A DNA stretch of 32,197 nt from Gammaproteobacteria bacterium (GTDB lineage: Bacteria; Pseudomonadota; Gammaproteobacteria; Pseudomonadales; Azotimanducaceae): the NCBI GenBank assembly GCA_028821125.1, contig JAPPHD010000064.1, positions 1-32,197 on the forward strand. Direction: 5' to 3'. A program made the position numbers and the translations under genes. Shown piece by piece: positions 25,051 to 27,304 of the stretch (positions are counted from its first letter, which is position 1; each line of letters begins with the position of its first letter). Below the pieces are notes generated by a model that saw only the letters and a program-made list of their open reading frames with translations, did not search any database and was not told where the DNA came from.

Positions 25051-25899
25051 ATGCAGGCCGAACCCGTACCATACATGGAACGAACGCGCCGCTATTACGA
25101 GGCGCAGGGCTTCGAGGCGCCCTACTTGTGGGCCCACAATCAAAGCACTCCGTTTGTGGCGCCGGCCGGACCCATCTCGGAATCGGTGCTGACACTGATC
25201 ACCACGGCCGCACTTCACGAGCGCGAAAAGTCCGATCGGCGGGACCTGATGTCCGGGCCCCTGTCCCCTCCGCCGTCCCGACTGTTCGCCAATGACCTGG
25301 CCTGGGACCGCAACGCCACCCATCTGGAGGATCTCAATTCCTACTTTCCCATCGACCGCTTGACGGAACTGGTGGCGGCCGGCCGAATCGGCAGGTTGGC
25401 AGCGCGCTTCCACTGCGTGCCGACGGAGTACAGTCAGCGCCGCACGACGGAGCTGGACGCGCCGGAGATCTTGCGGCGATGCAGGGAGGACGGAGTGGAT
25501 GCCGTTCTTCTCGTACCCCTGTGACCCGTCTGTCACCAGACCGTGTGTCTGGTCGCCCGCCACCTCGAAGCTGCCGGCATTGCGACCGTGATCCTGGGTT
25601 CCGCCATCGATATCGTCGAGCACTGCGGGGCGCCGCGATTCCTGTTCACGGATTTCCCCCTCGGCAATCCCTGCGGCCGGCCCTACGATGCCGCCATGCA
25701 GCGGTCGATCGTCGAAGCTGCCATCGACCTGCTCGACAGTGCGTCCGGGCCAAGAACGGTCGTTCGCACCCCGTACCGCTGGAGCGACGACGAGAGTTGG
25801 CGGGAGCGATACATGGAAGTGCGGCCCGAGAACAGGGCCGAACTCGCCGCCAGGGGCGAGGCGCGCCGGTTACAGCGCGCGCAGGTTCAAAGGGGATGA
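25051..25899 (+). CDS. selenoprotein B family reductase (GrdB/PrdB-like) with in-frame UGA, probable selenocysteine at residue 158
   Basis: A 282-residue protein if UGA 25522-25524 is decoded. Before it, the frame encodes RTRRYYEAQGFEAPYLWAH, TLITTAALH, the FPIDRLTELVAAGRIG segment and DGVDAVLLVPL. After it, PVCHQTVCLVARHLEAAGIA, TVILGSAIDIVEHCG and FTDFPLGNPCGRP follow without frame change. This is the single-domain fold of the glycine/sarcosine/betaine/D-proline reductase selenoprotein B family (PF07355-type), about the size of PrdB (~240). UGA stands at the first position of the redox motif (U158-P-V-C161), where the family has Cys or Sec. A hairpin fitting a bacterial SECIS follows at once. 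The alternative is a point-mutated Cys codon (TGC or TGT to TGA). No Sec genes are in the window. A truncated enoyl-CoA hydratase follows 33 bp later. Confidence 0.8.
25522..25556 (+). promoter_or_regulatory. candidate bacterial SECIS element
   Basis: Seventeen bases after the UGA begins a loop CGTGT (25542-25546), closed by a perfect 6 bp stem CCAGAC/GTCTGG (25536-25541 with 25547-25552). One more A-T pair extends the stem (25535/25553), and after a C/C mismatch come a T-G wobble and a G-C pair. Published rules for bacterial SECIS ask for a loop roughly 16-37 bases after UGA with a G in its first two positions; both hold. SelB would bind it. Confidence 0.6.
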
Positions 25900-25932: not shown

Positions 25933-26163
25933 ATGGATTTCGAAACGATCACCTACGAGCGGCGGGGCCCCGTCGCCTATGTGACCCTCAATCGTCCCGA
26001 GAAACTGAACGCGATGAACGCCACGCTGCACAGCGAACTCGGCGAGGCCTGGGCGGCGTTCCGGGACGACGAGTCGCTGCTGGTCGCAATCCTCTCGGGC
26101 AACGGCCGCTGCTTCAGCGCGGGGGCCGACCTGAAAGCTTCAGCAGAGTTCCGGGAACTTTCC
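25933..26163 (+). pseudogene. enoyl-CoA hydratase/isomerase, N-terminal fragment
   Basis: ATG at 25933, with GGAG six bases before it, starts a normal crotonase: ITYERRGPVAYVTLNRPEKL, NAMNATLHSELGEAW and the first oxyanion-hole segment GRCFSAGADL (residues 58-67). Similarity stops after residue 77. The frame then runs on through Arg-rich, repeat-derived text to a TGA near 26418, antisense to the LLM gene. Crotonases are about 260 residues and their second oxyanion loop and catalytic acid are absent here, so the product cannot be active. It was presumably co-transcribed with the selenoprotein-like gene. Confidence 0.8.
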
Positions 26164-26196
26164 CACAACCGCACATGCGCGGTGTGGTGTCGAGCT

Positions 26197-26250
26197 GCCA
26201 GGCAGCGAACCGGCAGGTCTGCTAGGCAGCGAACTGGTATGTCTGCCAGG
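26197..26250. repeat. two 24 bp tandem repeats plus a partial third
   Basis: Units at 26197-26220 and 26221-26244 (GCYAGGCAGCGAAC followed by YGGYAKGTCT), then GCCAGG. The second unit covers the last codons and stop of the LLM gene on the minus strand, and the first lies just beyond. The array marks the junction with the broken hydratase gene. Confidence 0.7.
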
Positions 26251-27304
26251 ACCTCAACTCGGGCAATACCTCCTCTGCGAACAGCCGCAGGCTCTTCTCG
26301 GACTGCTCCGTGGTCAAGCCGCCGTAGCTGGCTGAAATGCACAGGTCGTAGTCGCCGAGCACCCGGAAGCGGGCTTCCAGCTTTTCGAGCATCTGTCGAG
26401 GCGTTCCCCAGGCGTTGATGTCGACAAACCCGTTCGCCGCATCTTCCATGTTTGAATCGCGCAGCAGTTCGGCATTGTCCGCATAGTCGCCGTAACCCTT
26501 CATTTCGCGGAAATGCTCGTTCGCCAACTCGTAGTGTTCCATGACGGAAATGAAGTAATTGGAAATGTGCCTGCGCGCCATCGACTCGGCGAATTCGGCA
26601 CTCTCGTCGCAGAACAGGAAATCAACGCAGACTGGAGAGGGGGGCTGGGTGTTGTGATATTCGCGGTACAGGTCGCGATAGCGGTTGAAGTGGGGCAGCG
26701 TCTCTTCCCAGGGCTTGGTGCCGAAAGTCATCATCTTGGCGCCGAGGCGGGCGACCACGGGCACCGAGTCGGATGACATGCCGACGGCGTAGAAGCGGTC
26801 CTTGAAGCTGGCATAGGGCCGCGGCCGCACTTCGGTGCGCTTCTGCGGGTAGAAAGGCCCGTCGCCTTCGACCACGCCCGTCTCCAGGCCCCGGATGATC
26901 ATCTCGGCTGCCTCGTCGAAGCGCTCGCGGGATTCGCTCATGTCCACGCCGAAGGGTGCGTATTCCCGCCGCGACAGGCCCCGGCCGATGCCGAACAGCG
27001 CTCTGCCCCTGCTCAGGTGATCGAGGGTGATCATCTTCTCGACGACCCGCAGCGGATCGTTCCAGGGCAGGATGACCGCGCCGGTCAACAGGCCGATCCG
27101 TTCCGTCCTGGCGGCCATGTAGCTCAGGTACTCGAGGTTGTCCGGGCACATGGCGTAGTTGAAGAAGTGATGCTCCACCGAACTCAGGTAATCGAAGCTC
27201 AAGGGCTCCGCGAGGCCGCCGATGTGAATGTCGCGTTCCCAGGCGCCCTGATCGGTATCTCCATCCTCGAAATTCTGGAATACCATCAACATGCCGACCT
27301 GCAT
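26222..27304 (-). CDS. LLM-class flavin-dependent oxidoreductase (luciferase-like), copy 1
   Basis: A 360-residue TIM-barrel of the bacterial-luciferase superfamily. Motifs are the N-terminal strand QVGMLMVFQNFED, SVEHHFFNYAMCPD (the EHHF motif with active-site His), LPWNDPLRVVEKM, LDHLSRGRALFGIGRGLSR, MSESRERFDEAAEMI and VARLGAKMMTF. These enzymes bind FMN or F420 and act as monooxygenases or reductases. The GGGGGGAG site before ATG 27304 fixes the start; earlier codons would not fit the family N-terminus. It is a paralogue of the next gene at 27522. Its 3' end lies in a 24 bp tandem repeat, and the C-terminal residues QTYQFAA reappear as QTCRFAA after the stop. Confidence 0.9.
   Translation of the reverse strand: MQVGMLMVFQNFEDGDTDQGAWERDIHIGGLAEPLSFDYLSSVEHHFFNYAMCPDNLEYLSYMAARTERIGLLTGAVILPWNDPLRVVEKMITLDHLSRGRALFGIGRGLSRREYAPFGVDMSESRERFDEAAEMIIRGLETGVVEGDGPFYPQKRTEVRPRPYASFKDRFYAVGMSSDSVPVVARLGAKMMTFGTKPWEETLPHFNRYRDLYREYHNTQPPSPVCVDFLFCDESAEFAESMARRHISNYFISVMEHYELANEHFREMKGYGDYADNAELLRDSNMEDAANGFVDINAWGTPRQMLEKLEARFRVLGDYDLCISASYGGLTTEQSEKSLRLFAEEVLPELRSWQTYQFAA

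Follow-up and report, generated by a model that had tools for sequence, protein, structure and literature searches.

A selenocysteine codon at the redox motif of a PrdB/GrdB-related gene points to a selenoprotein that is probably stand-alone and distinct from D-proline reductase

The locus discussed here raises the question of whether an in-frame TGA in a gammaproteobacterial genome (assembly GCA_028821125.1, contig JAPPHD010000064.1; the analysed stretch of 32,197 nucleotides is referred to as the window) separates two genes or encodes selenocysteine (Sec) in the active site of one protein, and, in the latter case, which chemistry such a protein would perform. Automatic ORF listing cuts the region into two frames, 25051-25524 and 25543-25899, which the original prediction had joined into a single selenoprotein gene related to GrdB and PrdB. 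The features concerned are given below in window positions, the alignment A3 being described further on:

25051 to 25899, forward strand: putative PrdB/GrdB-related selenoprotein gene, 282 residues with UGA read as Sec, frame running from ATG 25051 to TGA 25897-25899
25522 to 25524, forward strand: in-frame UGA, predicted Sec residue 158, position 1 of U-P-V-C
25531 to 25533, forward strand: codon of Cys161, which likely acts as resolving thiol within the UxxC pair and does not vary across the 62 rows of A3
25535 to 25553, forward strand: predicted bacterial SECIS hairpin, 7-bp stem (25535-25541 with 25547-25553), loop CGUGU (25542-25546)
25532 to 25556, forward strand: the hairpin with its two lower pairs (25532-25533 with 25555-25556), predicted fold only
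25897 to 25899, forward strand: terminating codon of the selenoprotein gene, also TGA

The two frames do form one gene interrupted by a single TGA, with coordinates exactly as predicted: the reading frame is the same on both sides and holds no other internal TGA, the best curated match, TIGR04483 (PrdB; E 2e-27), covers residues 42-245 in one stretch across the TGA, and GC3 is equal before and after it (0.78 and 0.79). The residues that follow are P159, V160 and C161, which confirms that the TGA takes the first position of a U/C-x-x-C redox motif. If the UGA were a plain stop and the two halves separate proteins, the automatic listing, which splits the gene, would be correct; however, residues of the catalytic motif lie on both sides of the codon, the match lacks an internal stop in 46 of the 47 relatives with cysteine at this position (L115 has one), the two Cys relatives whose ends were read are 285 and 295 amino acids long, a length like that of the window protein, and the hairpin behind the UGA covaries as a SECIS (see below). 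This reading was therefore rejected as very improbable.

Among the 293 genomes of the window's order, 18 contain a match, and an in-frame TGA is present in 27 of the 28 matched places, the remaining one (in G167) lying on a contig that ends before residue 158. One match (L026, G279:C2:27066-27842) holds a TAA as well as the UGA and may be a damaged copy or a fault of the assembly. Wider relatives come from a collection of one genome per species (84,980 species), in which 188 stretches matched the search pattern; 157 of these encode a relative, and the best 80 of the 157 were kept. Codon 158 is TGA in 58, TGC in 39 and TGT in 8 of 105 loci, a set that includes the window and these best 80 of 157 relatives, while three tblastn matches without residue 158 (L036, L037 and L043) stand outside it. 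The alignment of this residue, which the original prediction had called for, hence pairs 58 UGA with 47 Cys codons. All 105 protein sequences are different; 48 of them carry the motif as U-P-V-C-H-Q and 47 as C-P-V-C-H-Q, the other ten being variant or unread. The U/CxxC pair is found in 104 of the 105, the last locus having an unread base. No relative turned up when viral contigs were scanned with a pattern.

A sequencing error behind the TGA, or decay of the gene to a pseudogene, could be suspected from the assembly of the source genome (5.28 Mb in 193 contigs, 97.3% completeness) and from the truncated hydratase gene next door (see below). A read error is nevertheless very unlikely because UGA recurs in 57 other loci with differing proteins, and the occurrence of the same codon in 58 loci, together with compensatory selection on the hairpin, makes error and pseudogene alike so extremely improbable that both were rejected.

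In a quick tree of 110 rows, which has several long branches, Sec and Cys forms interleave with at least six Sec/Cys changes, three of which are forced by strongly supported branches. One protein labelled Chloroflexota (L069) is nearly identical to a gammaproteobacterial one (L067; branch length 0.0047), so that its label is probably a binning error, or else the gene was recently transferred. For selA, 50 of those 80 genomes (from the best 80 of 157 relatives) were searched, and the gene was found in all 22 tested genomes with a UGA gene, in 21 of them over the cut-off and in the genome of L058 in two pieces below it. Of the 28 tested genomes with a Cys gene, 8 also have it over the cut-off and a ninth gives a weak match; the Cys form is therefore not forced by the loss of Sec.

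A hairpin with G in the second loop position had been predicted at the right distance behind the TGA, and this is borne out. The letters ACCAGAC and GTCTGGT form a perfect 7-bp stem around the 5-nt loop CGTGT, in which the second base is G, followed by U; the hairpin begins at the 11th base past the UGA, with a spacing of 17 nt from the UGA to the loop, and the 45-nt region has a predicted folding energy of -11.5 kcal/mol. These values lie within the limits for bacterial SECIS elements given in the available text of a 2026 review, namely a loop of 3-9 nt, an upper stem of 4-16 bp, G in the first two loop positions, a spacing of 16-37 nt and a minimum free energy of at most -7.5 (PMC13188914). 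The energy falls short of significance (z -0.97, with 32 of 200 shuffles folding equally well) and is ordinary for the composition, hence it proves nothing by itself, and an Rfam search over 2 kb returned three sub-threshold matches only.

The evidence for the element comes from its relatives. In 50 of the 58 UGA loci (identical rows and one row with an N were removed), the hairpin cells are paired in 93.7% against a shuffled mean of 79.3, two-sided changes occur at five of the seven pairs, and there are 55 double-change cells against a shuffled mean of 12.5, a number reached by none of 500 shuffles; shifting the partner by 1 to 3 columns lowers pairing to 18-34%. In contrast, the same columns in 42 of the 47 Cys loci (identical rows removed) are paired in 73.5% against 73.3 after shuffling and show no covariation (3 double-change cells against 2.6), and 37 of the 42 fail to form the A-U pair of columns 19/27. 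Where residue 166 is an AGY serine, the third base of its codon determines the pair with A25540, and counted by loci, which are not independent events, the codon reads AGT in 33 and AGC in 1 of the UGA genes but AGC in 36 and AGT in 4 of the Cys genes. In 17 of the 50 UGA genes the outermost A-U pair does not form, which leaves six pairs as the conserved core. As the hairpin is conserved and covarying in UGA relatives and lost in Cys relatives, which also answers the concern that it might not be conserved, it is more than a chance structure and, judged from these alignments, a SECIS shaped by compensatory selection, of which the Cys relatives show no sign.

The original prediction further depended on selB and tRNA-Sec being present in the same genome. 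Both are found above cut-off (selB, 385.5 bits; tRNA-Sec, 75.8 bits, with the anticodon tca according to ARAGORN), as are selA (518.5 bits) and selD (277 bits, contig C33), so that the full set sought is present; selA, selB and tRNA-Sec adjoin one another on contig C142. The selD match (L016, G000:C33:24023-24925) lies within an open frame of 754 residues and may be part of a fusion, since the frame far exceeds the 311 positions of the model. Across the order, selB is above cut-off in 39 of 293 genomes, including all 17 with the UGA gene (Fisher p 3e-17), the match in G226 spanning half of the model only. The source genome also harbors a second PrdB-like gene (L020, G000:C35:27525-28343), whose product shares 39% identity with the window protein and has an additional CPTC in its C-terminal part; the gene has its TGA at the homologous position and, as neighbors, a ChaC-like gene and a gene for a PLP enzyme of Cys/Met metabolism. 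Three matches to the UGSC family (L136, L137 and G000:C28:34931-35350) each have one internal TGA, one of them being above the family cut-off, and L136 reads U-G-S-C at the TGA. By sequence, at least five genes of this genome thus look like selenoprotein genes. The prediction of a GrdB/PrdB-related selenoprotein gene with UGA at its redox motif and a bacterial SECIS is supported, and the window gene almost certainly uses UGA 158 to insert Sec in the active site.

Which enzyme this would be is a separate matter. A true subunit of D-proline reductase (or of glycine, betaine or sarcosine reductase) working with a pyruvoyl subunit is suggested by PrdB being the best curated match, by the marine papers that file UxxC homologues as PrdB, at least in their available text (PMC1088965; PMC2398784), and by the second copy of the source genome, which at 171.5 bits on the PrdB model is somewhat closer to PrdB, though below the cut-off of 300, and passes the cut-off of Pfam GRDB. 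Like D-proline reductase PrdB, the window protein matches TIGR04483 across the Sec, which has the same position before xxC-H. However, it scores 96.2 bits against the cut-off of 300, whereas four Bacillota PrdB proteins reach 424.7, 310.2, 406.7 and 453.4 bits; its motif is U-P-V-C-H-Q instead of the U/C-G-T-C-H-R found in all four; it is 282 amino acids long, compared to 237-241 in the PrdB references; and prdA, which adjoins the PrdB gene in three of the four Bacillota loci, is absent beside the window gene. Moreover, the pyruvoyl partner family PF09338 has no match in the source genome and none in 16 of the 17 carriers overall, with a model that in a control recognizes PrdA (80 and 93 bits) and a GrdE-type subunit. 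This makes a D-proline or glycine reductase that depends on a pyruvoyl subunit quite improbable, and membership in PrdB was rejected on the model score, the U-P-V-C motif and the unmatched PF09338 of the source genome.

The only PF09338-positive carrier, G226 (L127, L128, L036, L043), belongs to the window's order and has two UGA genes of GrdB type with two PF09338 genes close by. The GrdB-type products score 602 and 600 bits on TIGR01918 (cut-off 65.45) and read U-G-T-C-T-R-C; this is likely, from its sequence, a system of the true glycine/betaine-reductase type. The models of GrdB, GrdF and GrdH (PF07355) are matched by the window protein in their C-terminal part, around the Sec, but the first ~280 of 431-435 model positions are unmatched, and it stays below every curated cut-off (17.8 bits against 22 on Pfam GRDB; 40.4 against 65.45 on TIGR01917/TIGR01918). 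With the GrdE-type partner of glycine, sarcosine and betaine reductase likewise unmatched (PF09338) in the source genome, membership in GrdB was rejected too. The UGSC family (NF041046) is also a UxxC selenoprotein family and is weakly related to PrdB by profile, but its model is shorter (147 positions) and no UGSC match is listed for the window protein. Two metagenome-assembled genomes with ALOHA in their titles, which we take to be the ocean station, contain the U-P-V-C form (L055 and L061).

UxxC proteins of this kind were reported from the Sargasso Sea in 2005 as 'PrdB', with 42 Sec genes the third most abundant known selenoprotein family there, and with D-proline reduction given as their role (PMC1088965); the Global Ocean Sampling data of 2008 added 235 Sec and 110 Cys forms (PMC2398784). 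In the available text of these surveys, 'PrdB' is among the commonest selenoproteins (PMC1088965; PMC2398784), and that of two reviews from 2022 and 2026 counts D-proline reductase among the selenoproteins (PMC9312934; PMC13188914). As described there, the marine set shares with the window gene the relation to PrdB, a UxxC motif with Sec, a bacterial SECIS and Cys homologues, although it is called proline reductase in those papers (PMC1088965; PMC2398784). It is likely the same U-P-V-C group, matched here by published description only, and a function other than proline reductase was not found for this group in the accessible text of the open-access literature searched. The claim of a new selenoprotein was thus too strong: going by the accessible text, such Sec proteins have been in print since 2005 and 2008, so that a selenoprotein of this sort was known before (PMC1088965; PMC2398784), and two plasmid-borne Cys homologues are already annotated as 'glycine/sarcosine/betaine reductase selenoprotein B family protein'. 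Added here, at the level of sequence comparison, are the separation of the U-P-V-C group from D-proline reductase by motif, model score and missing pyruvoyl partner, and the compensatory selection on its SECIS.

The most likely candidate function, given these comparisons, is that of a stand-alone selenol/thiol reductase. An AlphaFold2 model of the window protein (pLDDT 94.2, pTM 0.92) has a helix, residues 159-174, directly after residue 158; a helix that starts right behind the redox residue, as in other thiol-redox enzymes, favors a reactive selenolate. Conservation was read from alignment A3, which consists of the window protein and 61 of the 77 listed references (16 more distant rows were left out), the 77 being drawn from 105 references by omission of L019 (the window gene itself), L026, L071, L104, L115 and 23 further Cys loci. 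Sec/Cys158, C161, H162, Q163, D94, D136, D187 and R196 are invariant in all 62 rows.

In the proposed mechanism, SelB bound to the hairpin just past the codon would direct Sec-tRNA(UCA) to UGA 158, and Sec158, which sits at the N-terminal end of helix 159-174, would attack a small electrophilic substrate through its selenolate; Cys161 would then resolve the adduct, giving the reduced product and an internal selenosulfide, which could be reduced by a dithiol such as thioredoxin, or by glutathione. Near the C-terminus, a CxxC is present in six of nine sister-clade rows, including the second copy of the source genome, and fits a built-in dithiol that would reduce the active-site selenosulfide. 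This tail is absent from the other three rows and from the window protein, for which an outside reductant would consequently be needed.

Alternatively, Sec158 could have a non-redox role, either in binding a metal or selenium species or as the nucleophile of a transferase or lyase. Invariant D94, D136, H162, Q163, D187 and R196 and a P-L-G-N segment suggest a shaped pocket, and both the varying gene neighbors and the lack of a solved fold relative by Foldseek would agree with such a role; yet the U/CxxC pair is retained throughout A3 (62 rows) and in 104 of 105 loci, and six of nine sister-clade rows have the extra C-terminal CxxC, two features that thiol redox relays typically show and that make a non-redox role unlikely. 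A solved relative was not found by Foldseek at E <= 0.001, hence the catalytic geometry cannot be modelled by analogy, and in a sequence search of solved structures the window protein had no match at E <= 1 and the profile two at chance level. Biochemistry for the window clade was not found in the literature searched, and we know of no assay for the U-P-V-C group. The sequence-level support lies in the pairing of UGA with Cys codons, the covarying SECIS, the Sec machinery and PF09338 being unmatched in 16 of 17 carriers; from these we infer that Sec is made, that the chemistry is that of a reductase and that a dithiol recycles the enzyme. We put the probability at roughly 0.85 that the window gene encodes a selenoprotein, as a stand-alone member of the GrdB/PrdB superfamily other than D-proline or glycine reductase, with the UxxC selenol/thiol mechanism proposed above.

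The original prediction had also suggested a different use in an aerobic setting, and this part is plausible, though borne out only in part. In its favor, PF09338 is unmatched in 16 of 17 carriers, haem-copper oxidase subunit I (PF00115) is found in 16 of 17, and the window itself contains two cytochrome P450 genes and three luciferase-like monooxygenase genes; against it, the source genome is the sole exception among the 17 carriers, having no PF00115 match, which may reflect an assembly gap or another oxidase. Immediately 3' of the selenoprotein gene lies an enoyl-CoA hydratase gene (25933-26415, forward strand) that is apparently truncated: it covers profile positions 3-64 of 251 only, after which its frame continues over an antisense luciferase-like gene, and it shares the reading frame of the selenoprotein gene beyond the TGA stop of the latter.

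Gene neighbors were clustered with GC3 weighting, the UGA set comprising 35 loci (the window gene, the second copy and 33 UGA loci from the best 80 of 157 relatives). No constant partner was found, and neighbors vary among lineages. An AMP-binding acyl-CoA ligase cluster (three tested members) occurs near 17 of these 35 UGA loci, and a CoA-transferase III cluster (one tested member) near 8 of the 35; a CoA-transferase III cluster, likewise with one tested member, occurs near 8 of the 47 Cys loci of the best 80 of 157 relatives, but the UGA-side and Cys-side enzymes are 25-30% identical and hence not evidently the same gene. Recurrent neighbors further include genes for enoyl-CoA hydratase, acyl-CoA dehydrogenase, FAD-linked oxidase and Fe-S proteins, the latter two presumably resembling glycolate oxidase, as well as transporters. 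By plain counts only, acyl-CoA chemistry recurs among the neighbors. In Bradyrhizobium (L107, L124, L125 and others), genes for an aldoxime dehydratase, a nitrilase-like protein and an AraC protein lie as a shared block within ~6 kb downstream of the Cys form. Since neighbors are not conserved, the pathway is a guess, namely a role in the catabolism of small organic acids or xenobiotics. The wider proposal of a widespread selenoenzyme family of oxygen-respiring Proteobacteria, in which a pyruvoyl-independent, dithiol-recycled reductase would cleave or reduce a small electrophile in acyl-CoA or xenobiotic catabolism, is put forward tentatively, the odds being somewhat against it.

Should the pyruvoyl subunit indeed be missing from the carriers, as it seems to be in 16 of 17, calling this group proline reductase is wrong, and selenium would then have a common use for which no reaction is known. 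Were the aerobic-reductase reading true, an oxygen-sensitive selenol would be kept for a reductive step inside aerobic metabolism, in a family filed for twenty years as 'proline reductase'. The 50 UGA and 42 Cys genes of the SECIS comparison amount to a natural experiment on the requirements of the bacterial SECIS. Because the two forms are interleaved in the tree, and the Cys form also occurs in cultured Bradyrhizobium, the question of what this selenoenzyme does can be tested in tractable strains.
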